A stretch of 64,000 nucleotides of DNA, from NCBI RefSeq assembly GCF_007273535.1, contig NZ_RIBP01000004.1:3754602-3818601 (forward strand). Direction: 5' to 3'. The DNA is from Niallia circulans. GTDB lineage: Bacteria > Bacillota > Bacilli > Bacillales > Cytobacillaceae. The position numbers were made by a program, and so were the translations under genes. Positions 37,307 through 41,949 of the stretch are shown here, in pieces. The notes under the pieces were generated by a model. The model had not been told where the DNA came from. It did no database searches and saw only the letters and a list, made by a program, of their open reading frames with translations. Position 1 is the stretch's first letter, and each line of letters opens with the position of its first letter.

Positions 37307-38131
37307 TTATTGCCACTGATCAAACATGGTGACAGGGCTTAAGCGCTTATGCTCTGTCACGATATATCTTGCTTCAATCCGCTCGGCAAATTCAGCATCT
37401 ACTTCTTTTCCTTCCAAGTAATCGTCAATCACTTCATAACGCAAGCCGAGCGCTGTTTCATCGGGAATTTGCGGCTTATTATCCTCTAAATCAGCTGTCG
37501 GTGTTTTTGTATATAAATGTTCCGGACAGCCAAGCAGTTTCAAAATTTGCTTGCCTTGCCGCTTATTTAGCCGATACAGTGGCAAAATATCTGCCGCACC
37601 ATCACCGAATTTAGTAAAAAAGCCTGTCACTGCCTCTGCAGCATGATCTGTCCCCACAACAAGACCGTCTGATGCACCAGCAATATCATACTGAACCTTC
37701 ATTCTTTCCCTCGCTTTCACATTTCCCTTAAGAAAGTCTGCTTTCACTCCCCTTTTAATGGGAACAGACGCAAAGCTTGCATCCACACTTGCTTGAATAT
37801 TAACTGTTATTACCCTTGAAGGCTTAATAAACTCGATAGCATCAAGACAATCCTGTTCATCAAGCTGAACACCGTATGGCAGACGGACTGCAATAAACTC
37901 ATACGTCTGTTCATGCTGCTCCATGTTCAATTCATTGACAACAGTCTGACACATGAAGCCTGCAAGTGTTGAATCCTGTCCGCCAGACAGGCCCAAAACT
38001 AGTGCTTTACATGCCTTATTTCTAGTTAAATACCCCTTTAAAAAATCCACACTTTTTCTAAATTCAATGGCTGGATCTATGTTTGGCTGAACATGAAGCG
38101 TTTCAATAATTTCTCCTTGTAGCTGTCTCAT
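37307..38131 (-). CDS. nadE: NH3-dependent NAD+ synthetase
   Basis: Last step of NAD+ synthesis: amidates deamido-NAD with ATP and ammonia. The 274-residue protein has the N-type ATP pyrophosphatase P-loop SGGQDS (residues 49-54), the [26 protein letters not shown] deamido-NAD block (read in parts) and [16 protein letters not shown]. It lacks a glutaminase domain, as in B. subtilis. It is the last gene of a pncA-pncB-nadD-nadE operon and has no terminator before the convergent PhoD-like gene; the two stop codons abut. Confidence 0.95.
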
Positions 38132-38151: not shown

Positions 38152-38766
38152 CTATTTGTAAAGTTTGTTCTCCTTAATATAACTGTAGCAAGCGTCAGGC
38201 AATAAGTACCGCGGCTCTCCCCCCATTGCCAGTTCCTCACGAATATAGGTGGAGCTTATCTCCATTGCCAGTCCTTTATCAAGGAGATGAAAAGTACTGC
38301 CATCATCATTATTCCTCAATATAGGAGAGTGACTGATTGCCGTTAGCATATCAATGCCATCTCTTGCCATAACAATGAACTTATTTTCGGCAATAAGTTC
38401 TTCCCCCTTCGCCCACTTCCCCTTCCCGATATCCACAAGCAAATCTGCTCCCATAATAAAATAGACATCATCATTAGGATAAACTGCTTTAAAGTGCCGA
38501 AGCGTATTATAGGTGTAAATATTCCACGCCTCTTCCTTCATTTCATACTCATCTGCCGTAAACTTCGGGTTGTTTTCAATTGCTAACTCAAGCATTTTCC
38601 AGCGATGGCTATCATCAACATGAAGCTGTTTATCCCGTCGTTTGCTTGAGCACGGCAGAAAAATCACTTTATCCAGCTTACAGCGGTGCGCAACAGTGCT
38701 TGCCGTCCATAAATGCACATTCGTAACCGGATCAAACGAAGAGCCATATATACCGATTTTCCCCAT
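38152..38766 (-). CDS. nadD: Nicotinate mononucleotide adenylyltransferase, divergent NadD-like
   Basis: A 204-residue nucleotidyltransferase that should turn nicotinate mononucleotide into deamido-NAD. The first motif is GSSFDPVTNVHLW (residues 8-20), where the usual HxGH is TxVH; Thr is tolerated in the superfamily first position but Val for Gly is unusual. The last motif ISSTYIREEL (about 172-181) is normal. ATG 38766 follows AAGGAGGT. It is located between pncB and nadE, so the operon supplies all steps from nicotinamide to NAD. It is probably a second copy next to a housekeeping nadD elsewhere, which is inference. Confidence 0.85.
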   Translation of the reverse strand: MGKIGIYGSSFDPVTNVHLWTASTVAHRCKLDKVIFLPCSSKRRDKQLHVDDSHRWKMLELAIENNPKFTADEYEMKEEAWNIYTYNTLRHFKAVYPNDDVYFIMGADLLVDIGKGKWAKGEELIAENKFIVMARDGIDMLTAISHSPILRNNDDGSTFHLLDKGLAMEISSTYIREELAMGGEPRYLLPDACYSYIKENKLYK

Positions 38767-38772
38767 TTTTGA

Positions 38773-40233
38773 TTACCTCCTTCCCATGCTTTTTTCAACT
38801 TCTTCTTGGACTTCTTTAATAAGCTTCATTTTGTTATTCCAGCATTCCTCGCTAAGATCAACTGGATATTCCTCTGGATTGAGCATGCGTTTATATTCGT
38901 CCCAAAACAGCTTTAGATTATCTGCTGCATACCTTTGAATCTCTTGGAGGGACGGCAATTCATAACAGCTCTTCCCAGCCTTTATTGCTGTCACATGCAA
39001 TTCTTTTGCAGTGTAATCTGTGACGAACTTGCTGATATATGTGTGAACAGGATGAAACATTTTCAGGCGCTCCTGGGTAACATCCTCACTAGCTAGCGCG
39101 AGATAATCCCCTTCTGCATGACCGTTTCCTTTATTAATGATGCGGTACAGTCTTTTTTGACCAGGCGTCGTTACTTTTTCCGGATTAGCAGAGATTTTTA
39201 TCGTATCTGCCATTCCGCCATTATCTTCTTCAATACTGACAAGCTTATATACACCACCAAGTGCAGCTTGATCATAGGCGGTGATCAGCTTTGTACCAAT
39301 ACCCCATACATCAATTCTCGCACCCTCTGCTTTCACATTCATGATGGTATATTCATCTAAGTCATTTGACGCAATTATCTCTGTATTTGTAAAGCCAGCC
39401 TCATCGAGCATTTGTCTTGCTCGTTTTGATAAGTATGCCAAATCACCACTATCCAGTCTTATTGCCTTAAAGTTAATGCGACCGGCAAATTCCTTAGCAA
39501 CCTTGATTGCATTTGGCACGCCTGAGCGTAAAGTGTCATACGTATCGACTAAAAAAACACAATCCTTATGGCTGCTTGCATAGCTCTTGAATGCTTTATA
39601 CTCATCACGATATGCCTGCACAAGCGCATGGGCATGTGTACCTGCAATCGGAATGTCAAAGAGCTTACCTGCTCTTACATTACTGGTTGCAGCAAAACCG
39701 CCGATATAAGCAGCTCTCGTTCCCCACAAAGCGGCATCCAGTTCATGTGCTCTTCTCGTACCAAACTCCATTGCCGTGTTTTCACCAATTACCATCTTAA
39801 TACGAGATGCCTTTGTCGCAATTAAGGTTTGATAGTTTACAATATTGAGGAGAATTGTTTCTAACAGCTGTGCCTCTGCTAATGTTGCCTCAACCCTCAG
39901 TAGTGGTTCATTAGCAAACACGATTTCTCCCTCTCTCACACAATGAATGTCACCAGTAAAGCGAATTCCACTCAGATAACGCAAGAACTCTTCTGAGTAG
40001 CCAACCTCTCGCAAATACTCAATATCCGTTTCTGAAAAATGAAAGCTCTCAATTATGTCCATAACTCGCTCAAGTCCTGCAAAAACAGCGTATCCATTTC
40101 CGAAGGGAAGCTTGCGAAAATACATTTCAAACTCAGCCTTACGTTCATGAACATTGTCCTTCCAGTACGTTTCTACCATGTTAATCTGATATAAGTCTGT
40201 GTGCAGCATCAAGCTGTCATCTGAATATCTCAT
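38773..40233 (-). CDS. pncB: Nicotinate phosphoribosyltransferase
   Basis: Converts nicotinate and PRPP to nicotinate mononucleotide, the entry of the Preiss-Handler salvage route. The 486-residue protein has LHTDLYQINMVETYW at the start, EFGTRRAHELDAALWGTRAAYIGGFAATSN (the phosphoribosyl-site His region, read in parts), GTHAHALVQAY and IRLDSGDLAYLSKRAR. Length and wording fit the Bacillus PncB. Its ATG shares one base with the pncA stop (TAATG), so translation is coupled. The nadD gene starts 6 bp downstream. Confidence 0.95.
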   Translation of the reverse strand: MRYSDDSLMLHTDLYQINMVETYWKDNVHERKAEFEMYFRKLPFGNGYAVFAGLERVMDIIESFHFSETDIEYLREVGYSEEFLRYLSGIRFTGDIHCVREGEIVFANEPLLRVEATLAEAQLLETILLNIVNYQTLIATKASRIKMVIGENTAMEFGTRRAHELDAALWGTRAAYIGGFAATSNVRAGKLFDIPIAGTHAHALVQAYRDEYKAFKSYASSHKDCVFLVDTYDTLRSGVPNAIKVAKEFAGRINFKAIRLDSGDLAYLSKRARQMLDEAGFTNTEIIASNDLDEYTIMNVKAEGARIDVWGIGTKLITAYDQAALGGVYKLVSIEEDNGGMADTIKISANPEKVTTPGQKRLYRIINKGNGHAEGDYLALASEDVTQERLKMFHPVHTYISKFVTDYTAKELHVTAIKAGKSCYELPSLQEIQRYAADNLKLFWDEYKRMLNPEEYPVDLSEECWNNKMKLIKEVQEEVEKSMGRR

Positions 40234-40805
40234 TATTTATCTGCTCCTTTTCCCTGAATAATTTTCGCTCCTAAGACTGTCTTAAAGTGTTCAATTGCCC
40301 ATTCATGCCCCTTTTGGGAGAAGGAGGCAACCGCATCCTCATATATAACGAGGCTAAAGCCTTTATTATATGCATCAACCGCAGTATGAAGCACACATAT
40401 ATCTGTGCATAAGCCGACAAGATGAAGCTCTGTTATCCCTCTTTCTCTTAGCTTCAACTCCAAATCTGTCCCTGCAAAGGCTGAGTATCTTGTTTTATCT
40501 AAATAATAAATATGATTGAACTGGTTATTTCTTTCATAAACCTCCCGCAAACTGCCGAATAAACTTCTGCCTGCTGTGTTCCTTATATTATGAGGTGGAA
40601 ATAATGCATGCTCTGGATGAAGTGTATCCTCCGCTTCATGCACATCCACCGCAAAAACCGTATAATCACCATTTCGAATAAATTTCTCTGTAATAGATGT
40701 AACTTCTTTTTCTATTAATTGCCCTTTCTCACCGCAGGATAACCTTCCGTCAATTGAGGCAAAATCAACAGTATAGTCAATATTTATTAACGCCTTATTC
40801 GCCAT
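40233..40805 (-). CDS. pncA: Nicotinamidase
   Basis: Deamidates nicotinamide to nicotinate. The 190-residue isochorismatase-fold hydrolase has the full catalytic triad: Asp10 (NIDYTVDF), Lys104 (DKTRYSAF) and Cys137 (GLCTDICVLHTA). The metal site is Asp54/His56/His63-66 (VDVHEAEDTLHPEH). The ATG follows AGGGAGGA. It is the first gene of the NAD salvage operon. A 17-bp palindrome 46 bp upstream matches one at the Nudix regulator gene. Confidence 0.93.
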   Translation of the reverse strand: MANKALINIDYTVDFASIDGRLSCGEKGQLIEKEVTSITEKFIRNGDYTVFAVDVHEAEDTLHPEHALFPPHNIRNTAGRSLFGSLREVYERNNQFNHIYYLDKTRYSAFAGTDLELKLRERGITELHLVGLCTDICVLHTAVDAYNKGFSLVIYEDAVASFSQKGHEWAIEHFKTVLGAKIIQGKGADK

Positions 40806-40842: not shown

Positions 40843-40872
40843 ATTTTGTTATTTGTAATTTACAAATTTCAA
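40843..40872 (-). promoter_or_regulatory. Promoter and operator of the NAD salvage operon
   Basis: ATTTGTAATTTACAAAT (40851-40867) is a perfect 17-bp palindrome. It lies in the spacer between TTGAAA (40872-40867) and CAAAAT (40848-40843) on the minus strand (18 bp). A 14-of-17 copy lies before the Nudix gene. Confidence 0.7.
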
Positions 40873-40884
40873 ATTACTTTAGTT

Positions 40885-40922
40885 AAAAAGAAGGAGGAAA
40901 GCTTTTTGTCTTTCCCTTCTTT
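40885..40922 (-). terminator. Terminator of the Nudix regulator gene
   Basis: AAAAGAAGG/GGAAAG and CTTTCC/CTTCTTTT arms form a stem with a small bulge around CTTTTTGT; Ts follow on the minus strand. Confidence 0.65.
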
Positions 40923-40930
40923 TACACCCA

Positions 40931-41728
40931 TTAATGATAAATGGATTCAATAATTTCAAAGTCATTAAAAACATATAGCTGAGATGGTCTGAATGAATTT
41001 CTTTTTGTCTTTTTAGGCGACCCGTCAACGTCGAGTGCTTTTTCAATAAATGGAAGCTTTGGTGCCTTCGTGAAAAAGACCGAATCATTCGAAATCCTTG
41101 GATCATCTCCAACTGTCAGCAGTACCCGCTGCAGTTCTGACAGTGTAAATTCCTTTGGCAAGAAGTTTTTAGCTGCAGTCGTCGTAATCATGTCCCGCTT
41201 TATAAAGCGCAGTCCATCTTTAATGATTTCTTGATGATCAAACGCCAAGTTTAAAGCTGGTATCTCCTCTACATCAAATAACTCCACTTCTGCTGCGTCA
41301 TCATTTGCCTGACGCTTTTTTATATCTTCTTCTGGAACGATTGCATAAAAAGCATTTGATATCATCCAGCCTCTAGGATCTCGTTTAAATTTGTCATATA
41401 CACCAAAATGCAATATATGCAAACCATCCACATTTGTTTCTTCCTTTAATTCTCTTTTGGCTGCCATTAAAGCCGTTTCTTCCTTAAGCGCATCAACAAA
41501 TCCTCCAGGGAGAGCCCATTTTCCACCCTCAATATTTGGATTTCCTTCTTGGTCTGTTTCAGCACGCTTTATAAGCAACAGCTTCAGTGTCATGGATGGC
41601 GGTGCTTTTTCCTCTGTTTTTTCTGATACAATGGTGAAAATGGCAATATCAGCAGTATAGCCGTCAGGCGTTCGGTACTTAGCCGAATCATAATTTGCCA
41701 GTGCTTCTTTTTCTGTTTTATATTTCAT
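40931..41728 (-). CDS. nrtR: Nudix-domain regulator of NAD metabolism, NrtR-like
   Basis: A 265-residue protein made of a Nudix domain (about residues 25-165) and a C-terminal winged helix (about 180-262), the layout of the NrtR repressors that sense ADP-ribose. The Nudix box is GGFVDALKEET...KRELKEETNV: the RE..EE residues are kept, but two extra residues sit before the first conserved Glu. The FLPKEFTLSELQRV segment opens the winged helix, and RPSQLYVF ends it, as in NrtR. The ATG at 41728 follows AGAGGG. The same palindrome-like site occurs before this gene and before pncA. In bacilli NiaR normally has this task. Confidence 0.82.
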   Translation of the reverse strand: MKYKTEKEALANYDSAKYRTPDGYTADIAIFTIVSEKTEEKAPPSMTLKLLLIKRAETDQEGNPNIEGGKWALPGGFVDALKEETALMAAKRELKEETNVDGLHILHFGVYDKFKRDPRGWMISNAFYAIVPEEDIKKRQANDDAAEVELFDVEEIPALNLAFDHQEIIKDGLRFIKRDMITTTAAKNFLPKEFTLSELQRVLLTVGDDPRISNDSVFFTKAPKLPFIEKALDVDGSPKKTKRNSFRPSQLYVFNDFEIIESIYH

Positions 41729-41752
41729 GCTAAACCCTCTTATCAAATAGTA

Positions 41753-41769
41753 ATTTGTAATTCGTAAAT
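41753..41769. promoter_or_regulatory. Operator copy before the Nudix regulator
   Basis: ATTTGTAATTCGTAAAT shares 14 of 17 bases with the perfect palindrome before pncA. It ends 25 bp before the start codon, fitting autoregulation. Confidence 0.65.
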
Positions 41770-41949
41770 TACTTGTTAATAACAATATACCTCCTTTTCC
41801 TTCCAATTGCAAGCCTAAAATTTTAAAATTTCCAGATAAAAAAACGAAAGCCTCCTGTCATACAGACCCTATAATATTGAAGTAATAACAAATAAAGCAT
41901 TTTCATTGCAATAATTTTAGCAATAATATTTTTTTTCAGAATAACTGCT

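Follow-up and report, generated by a model that had tools for sequence, protein, structure and literature searches.

Which DNA element, if any, joins the Nudix/winged-helix gene in a 64,000-nucleotide (nt) stretch of the Niallia circulans genome (contig NZ_RIBP01000004.1; hereafter the window) to the nicotinamide adenine dinucleotide (NAD) salvage operon beside it? In bacilli, NiaR is the regulator usually invoked for NAD control. An initial annotation correctly described the two units, the regulator gene (41728-40931, here nrtR) and pncA-pncB-nadD-nadE (40805 down to 37307, minus strand), and proposed that a 17-base-pair (bp) palindrome serves both. Our analysis strongly supports the link between regulator and operon through a common operator, as judged by conservation, and points to GTAATT-N11-AATTAC instead of the 17-mer as that operator. 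We consider it highly probable from these sequences that an NrtR-type repressor regulates its own gene and a duplicate pncA-pncB-nadD-nadE operon through this element, and that it is released by adenosine diphosphate (ADP)-ribose or a related ligand.

A shared element at two promoters

The features of the locus are as follows (G numbers denote genomes, G000 being that of the window, and L numbers denote loci).

41750..41772: predicted operator 1, nrtR promoter, GTAATT-N11-AATTAC, exact genome match; exact at the same place in G006, G007, G009, G011 and G012
40855..40877: predicted operator 2, pncA promoter, GTAATT-N11-AATTAC, exact genome match; exact at pncA in G007, G009, G011 and G012
40931..41728, minus strand: nrtR, 265-amino-acid Nudix and winged-helix regulator (Pfam NUDIX 7e-16, NrtR_WHD 1e-5, predicted fold)
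41784..41812, minus strand: likely sigma-A promoter of nrtR, TTGCAA-17 nt-TATATT (pattern scan)
40895..40916, minus strand: terminator-like hairpin between nrtR and the pncA operon (a 51-nt stretch folds at -16.8 kcal/mol, z -2.8)
40233..40805, minus strand: pncA, nicotinamidase of the isochorismatase family (PF00857 8e-30), named from its domain and operon context
38773..40233, minus strand: pncB, nicotinate phosphoribosyltransferase, second genome copy (NF006697 above cut-off)
38152..38766, minus strand: nadD, nicotinate-nucleotide adenylyltransferase, second copy (TIGR00482 above cut-off)
37307..38131, minus strand: nadE, NAD synthetase, second copy (NF001979 above cut-off)

Through comparison of the upstream regions of orthologues, we recognised the pattern GTAATT-N11-AATTAC, which is common to both promoters (40855-40877 and 41750-41772) and has its sole two exact matches in the 5.46-Mb genome there. 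Each promoter would by chance contain an exact match with a probability of about 8e-5, for a pattern chosen after the orthologues were seen. Within the genus, the element is exact at both promoters in G000, G007, G009, G011 and G012 and at nrtR in G006; other exact copies lie elsewhere in G011 (two more) and in G001, G003 and G004 (one each, not near pncB), and none was found in G002, G005, G008 or G010. Judged by coordinate, none of the 35 one-mismatch places genome-wide is at nadB, niaR or the canonical pncA. On this reading of the sequence, the telling point is the placing of the two sites, not their genome-wide frequency.

Operator 1 begins 11 nt downstream of the likely nrtR promoter. The sigma-A scan of the region gave 5 matches against a shuffle average of 4.7, and we assign this promoter because its hexamers recur, visible by eye, upstream of the near orthologues L007-L010 (TTGCAT in L010). 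No confident placement of a pncA promoter was obtained from the sequence, and pncA itself had no NCBIfam model above cut-off. Operator 2 is situated 49 nt upstream of the pncA ATG. The terminator-like hairpin separates the nrtR and pncA units, which would explain the need for two operators.

Operator 1 also contains an inner palindrome, GTAATT-N4-AATTAC (41757-41772, plus strand). In G006 (L080), a long palindrome, CTAATTTGTAATATGTAAATTACAAATTAG, lies between nrtR and pncB, before pncB, with variant half-sites at spacings other than N11; spacings of 4, 11 and 18 (7-bp steps) can be read across the sites. A hairpin reading of the element at 40845-40885 was weak (z -1.4) and was set aside.

Operator types and the regulator across Bacillales

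The initial annotation regarded an NrtR circuit here as a lineage-specific addition, which its distribution contradicts. Strong NrtR matches were obtained in 7/13 genus genomes (E up to 8.6e-80; G010 gave only a weak one, 5.7e-4) and, by our own count, in 61/193 family genomes at E <=1.3e-47. The A1 profile at 1e-20 matched in 85/397 genomes sampled from the order, representing 31/136 genera. The Niallia taxi protein (L112) is 95% identical to that of the window. We analysed 141 loci from two overlapping sets of 61 and 80, which left 126 after the removal of near-identical ones, and took as the downstream gene whichever of six salvage genes came first on the same strand. Such a gene was present in 122/126 loci (pncA in 74, pnuC in 39, pncB in 9), within 400 nt in 117. 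Judged by this link and the order-wide matches, the circuit is spread across Bacillales and apparently targets either the salvage of nicotinamide/nicotinate or the uptake of riboside (pnuC-nadR). This would represent a second, NrtR-based layer of NAD control across the order, tied to salvage genes.

Two loci, L166 (Bacillus sp. P14.5) and L169 (Rossellomorea marisflavi), carry hybrid nrtR-pncA-pnuC-nadR operons that join nicotinamide and riboside salvage. In L068 (G052), the nrtR match is split into two pieces in different frames, with pncA, pncB and nadE matches downstream.

Scanning the 150 nt upstream of nrtR in the 126 loci, in comparison with shuffles, we found TTAAC-N3..12-GTTAA in 75 (shuffled mean 0.85, maximum 3), GTAATT-N11-AATTAC in 11 (shuffled 0) and TCATAATGA in 19 (shuffled 0.35). 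In the gap between nrtR and the salvage gene, scanned for the first two repeat kinds with the second loosened to GTAAT-N4..20-ATTAC, a repeat was present in 16/23 gaps of 80-400 nt, 15/35 of 40-79 nt and 0/59 under 40 nt. In the five genus genomes that have pncB2-nadD2 but lack a strong nrtR match, the 300 nt before pncB contain neither repeat. The stretch seen at these five loci (L074-L078) has a truA-like gene upstream, named by eye, and contains no nrtR or pncA.

A second NrtR-like group, from Paenibacillus and Saccharibacillus (L171, L172, L174-L179, L181-L190), is about 43-47% identical and often stands beside pncA-pncB. Before its gene lies TCATAATGA, often followed by TATCA, and no TTAAC or GTAATT repeats. 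L168 (53% identical) also has TCATAATGA, though it falls outside this group on the tree.

On a quick tree of 125 proteins, with Shimodaira-Hasegawa-like approximate likelihood-ratio test (SH-aLRT) support only, the GTAATT type forms one branch of 13 (SH-aLRT 95, one change). The strict pattern gives 11 of these loci; L114, with a site before pncA only, and L119, with a one-mismatch site by our own reading, were put in the group by hand for the tree and residue table. In our set, the branch comprises the window's Niallia group, Lysinibacillus macroides, two Peribacillus, Domibacillus, one Virgibacillus and one Oceanobacillus. Among the columns that best separate it, 201, 211, 217, 220, 246 and 249 belong to the winged helix, and 41, 42, 80 and 261 lie elsewhere in the protein. 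At position 220, 86/91 class-A proteins have Arg and the branch has Thr, Ala, Ser or Gly; at position 246, 84/91 class-A proteins have Lys and the branch has Phe or Tyr.

In the alignment to Bacteroides AraR, positions 217 and 220 correspond to Asn181 and Lys184, and 246, 247 and 249 to Lys204, Arg205 and Ala207. In the AraR-DNA structure, as described in PMC4666351, the former two contact the major groove and the latter three, in the wing, the minor groove. This pairing is only probable, since gaps adjoin both aligned stretches (217-220 and 246-249). Residues 217 and 220 sit in helix 215-224 of the structure model; 41, 42, 80, 201, 211, 244 and 261 are among the separating columns that are not named DNA contacts.

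Residues 220 and 246 were then used as a predictor in 40 of the 85 NrtR genomes, taken down the listing, from which 12 duplicates were dropped before counting (three of these, L240, L242 and L265, had no pattern), leaving 28 loci. All 28 had the NAD gene link, two with the gene about 1 kb away. The six loci predicted to be of the GTAATT type had three exact sites and, by our own reading, three with one mismatch in the last half-site, and none had the TTAAC type. Among the 22 predicted to be of the TTAAC type, 20 had it and L247 and L264 did not match; none had an exact GTAATT-N11-AATTAC, and L227 has a looser GTAAT..ATTAC besides.

These results lead us to favour, with clear reservations, a reading in which regulator and operator were recoded together once within Bacillales NrtR, in one branch. 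An Arg220/Lys246 protein reading TTAAC..GTTAA would have given way to one with a small residue at 220 and Phe or Tyr at 246 reading GTAATT-N11-AATTAC, at nrtR's own promoter and, where separate, at that of the salvage operon; in Niallia it would govern a dedicated second copy of the nicotinamide-to-NAD pathway. The branch is a single tree event, so the residue and operator changes are inseparable from shared descent. By sequence, what is particular to the window branch is the operator sequence, not the circuit. NrtR motifs vary widely between groups, and correlations between residues and operators have already been studied in the family (PMC4666351, PMC5045206). The principle is thus known from these sources, and the GTAATT residue and operator change did not turn up in the literature searched, although the paper that founded the NrtR family (Rodionov et al. 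2008) may hold an earlier account; that search also found nothing joining NrtR with Paenibacillus or with Niallia. Two operator types with matching changes at DNA contacts could provide a clean, cheap test case for repressor-operator co-change.

Proposed mechanism and its alternatives

The window protein is of the NrtR type, with a Nudix domain at its N terminus (PF00293 7.1e-16; found in 12/12 members of the A1 alignment) and a winged helix at its C terminus (NrtR_WHD, PF21906, in 11/12 members at E <=0.01, best 2.4e-13; row L066 had been ended before the wing by our trimming). Across both domains, its predicted fold matches AraR and Shewanella NrtR, the best structural matches (3gz5, 3gz6, 5deq). 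As for the Shewanella oneidensis NrtR (SoNrtR) residues named as ADP-ribose contacts in PMC4666351, Tyr10, Arg98 and Asn43 align with identical residues in the window protein, Phe15 with Tyr and Lys76 with Glu, under an apparent chain offset of 3.

We propose that the product of 41728-40931 is an NrtR-type repressor that would bind GTAATT-N11-AATTAC as a dimer, immediately beyond the -10 of the nrtR promoter and again before pncA, repressing both nrtR and the separately transcribed pncA-pncB-nadD-nadE. Upon NAD breakdown, ADP-ribose or a related NAD-derived ligand would fill the Nudix pocket, the winged helices would rotate and lose their register, and the extra pathway from nicotinamide to NAD would be switched on. 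We infer dimer binding, repression, the ligand and the direction of action by analogy with relatives; what the sequences themselves show is the domain make-up, the predicted fold, the two matching sites, their conservation with the regulator, the terminator-like hairpin and the lack of a site before pncB in the five regulator-less genomes.

Several observations weigh against this proposal. GTAATT-N11-AATTAC shows no genome-wide enrichment, with 2 exact matches against about 1.3 expected from base composition and 11 in a reversed-pattern control, and 37 places against 80 in that control at <=1 mismatch. Neither repeat precedes nrtR in 40/126 loci (21 with none of the three patterns, 19 with the unrelated TCATAATGA element), L114 has a site before pncA without one before nrtR, and the palindrome at the G006 pncB promoter is spaced differently. 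The repeat patterns were chosen after the upstream sequences were viewed, to which the 28-locus test is an answer only in part. The window protein scores 26.0 bits against the NrtR_WHD Pfam cut-off of 27.0 and 101 bits against the cut-off of 400 for NCBIfam NF050029 (NtrR equivalog), so it is not placed in that narrow equivalog.

The remaining points against it concern the ligand. SoNrtR Lys76 aligns with Glu97 of the window protein; the two pockets are therefore not the same and may take different ligands. PMC4666351 describes two NrtR-family proteins with other ligands, Corynebacterium glutamicum NdnR, which answers to NAD, and AraR, which answers to arabinose. NrtR might control the salvage genes through a ligand other than ADP-ribose (NAD, NAD phosphate or nicotinate) or as an activator, an alternative that we regard as unlikely but serious. 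Set against it are the retained Tyr, aromatic, Asn and Arg pocket positions and the response to ADP-ribose of a Gram-positive NrtR, that of Streptococcus sobrinus; an activating role sits poorly with operator 1, which lies just downstream of the likely -10, as a repressor's would.

Considerably less probable is an enzymatic role, in which the Nudix protein would act as an ADP-ribose pyrophosphatase, recycle the products of NAD breakdown and adjoin the NAD genes as a metabolic neighbour, with the palindromes bound by another regulator. Hydrolysis is possible given the RExxEE core, kept in 13/13 proteins of the window branch and 63/91 of class-A, and the whole canonical Nudix box is present in 53/91 class-A and 19/21 class-C relatives. 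That box is also present in 3/13 of the window branch. In the window protein itself, however, the signature GX5EX7REUXEEXGU is impaired by a two-residue insertion and a G to N change. The winged helix is moreover conserved, in the A1 members and as helix 215-224 of the model, and the operator type tracks its residues in the 28 further loci.

The 17-mer of the initial annotation, ATTTGTAATTTACAAAT, is indeed a perfect palindrome about its central base (40851-40867, between nrtR and pncA, overlapping operator 2), with a 14/17 copy upstream of nrtR (41753-41769, 24 bp before the ATG at 41728). As a common operator it fares poorly, being exact only at pncA. At <=3 mismatches it gave 5 matches in the window, two of them both strands of one site, a number reached by 1/100 shuffles; at <=2 mismatches it gave 6 places genome-wide against 3 for a reversed-pattern control, none of the 6 being the nrtR copy. 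We dropped it on account of this slight enrichment and the 3 mismatches at nrtR. That it is the true operator and the GTAATT pair incidental is most improbable: a longer perfect palindrome at pncA and a palindrome with ATTTGTAAT/ATTACAAAT arms before pncB in G006 speak for it, whereas in G009, G011 and G012 the 17-mer is broken at pncA and GTAATT-N11-AATTAC is exact at both promoters. The observation was thus partly confirmed; it is real, and the operator appears to have been read in the wrong register.

A second salvage pathway and related systems

The genome contains a canonical pncA-pncB-nadE elsewhere, without a GTAATT-N11-AATTAC site. Its pncB (G000:C4:3100842-3102284) is 70% identical to that of the window, and the nadE adjoining it 57%; another nadD is 33% identical, and a nadB above cut-off is present. 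A separate gene at C4:2150411, the one genome match, encodes NiaR with its 3H domain (PF02829), which was not found in the window Nudix/winged-helix protein. We therefore abandoned two readings, that NrtR acts instead of NiaR and that the window operon is the only salvage operon of the cell. Because these genes are also in the genome, the window operon is, on sequence grounds, a second and complete gene set leading from nicotinamide to NAD, with a predicted switch of its own. Such a duplicate pathway could refill NAD after breakdown.

The nearest parallel is streptococcal NrtR (S. sobrinus SsNrtR and that of S. suis), likewise a Gram-positive NrtR acting on NAD salvage. SsNrtR binds the pnuC and pncB promoters in vitro and is released by ADP-ribose, as described in PMC12735969, and the streptococcal nrtR-pnuC arrangement recurs in the 39 pnuC loci above. 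In contrast, the streptococcal winged helix is N-terminal, with the domains inverted, whereas that of the window protein is C-terminal, as in Shewanella, and the Streptococcus motif given in PMC6800001, ATA-N-TTTA-N3-TAAAA-N2-ATA, differs from GTAATT-N11-AATTAC. SoNrtR (PDB 3GZ5, 3GZ6, 3GZ8) has 22-26% identity to the window protein in structural alignments. AraR (PDB 5BS6, 5DEQ) differs in its L-arabinose ligand, its sugar genes and its filled nucleotide pocket, according to PMC4666351. NiaR (YrxA) also regulates NAD in bacilli but belongs to a different protein family. Many lactic acid bacteria show an overlap of NiaR with NrtR, as reported in PMC3616900; together with the streptococcal release by ADP-ribose, this suggests that the same logic may apply here, with NAD breakdown raising ADP-ribose and opening the extra pathway.

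As for the canonical pathway, a small palindrome, GTATAATGTGTTCACATATTTT, lies beside a likely -10 in 5/13 canonical pncA promoters of the genus (L084, L088, L089, L090 and L093). The genomes concerned (G007, G009, G012, G011 and G000) are the same five that have the exact NrtR site at both promoters, and they are also close kin.
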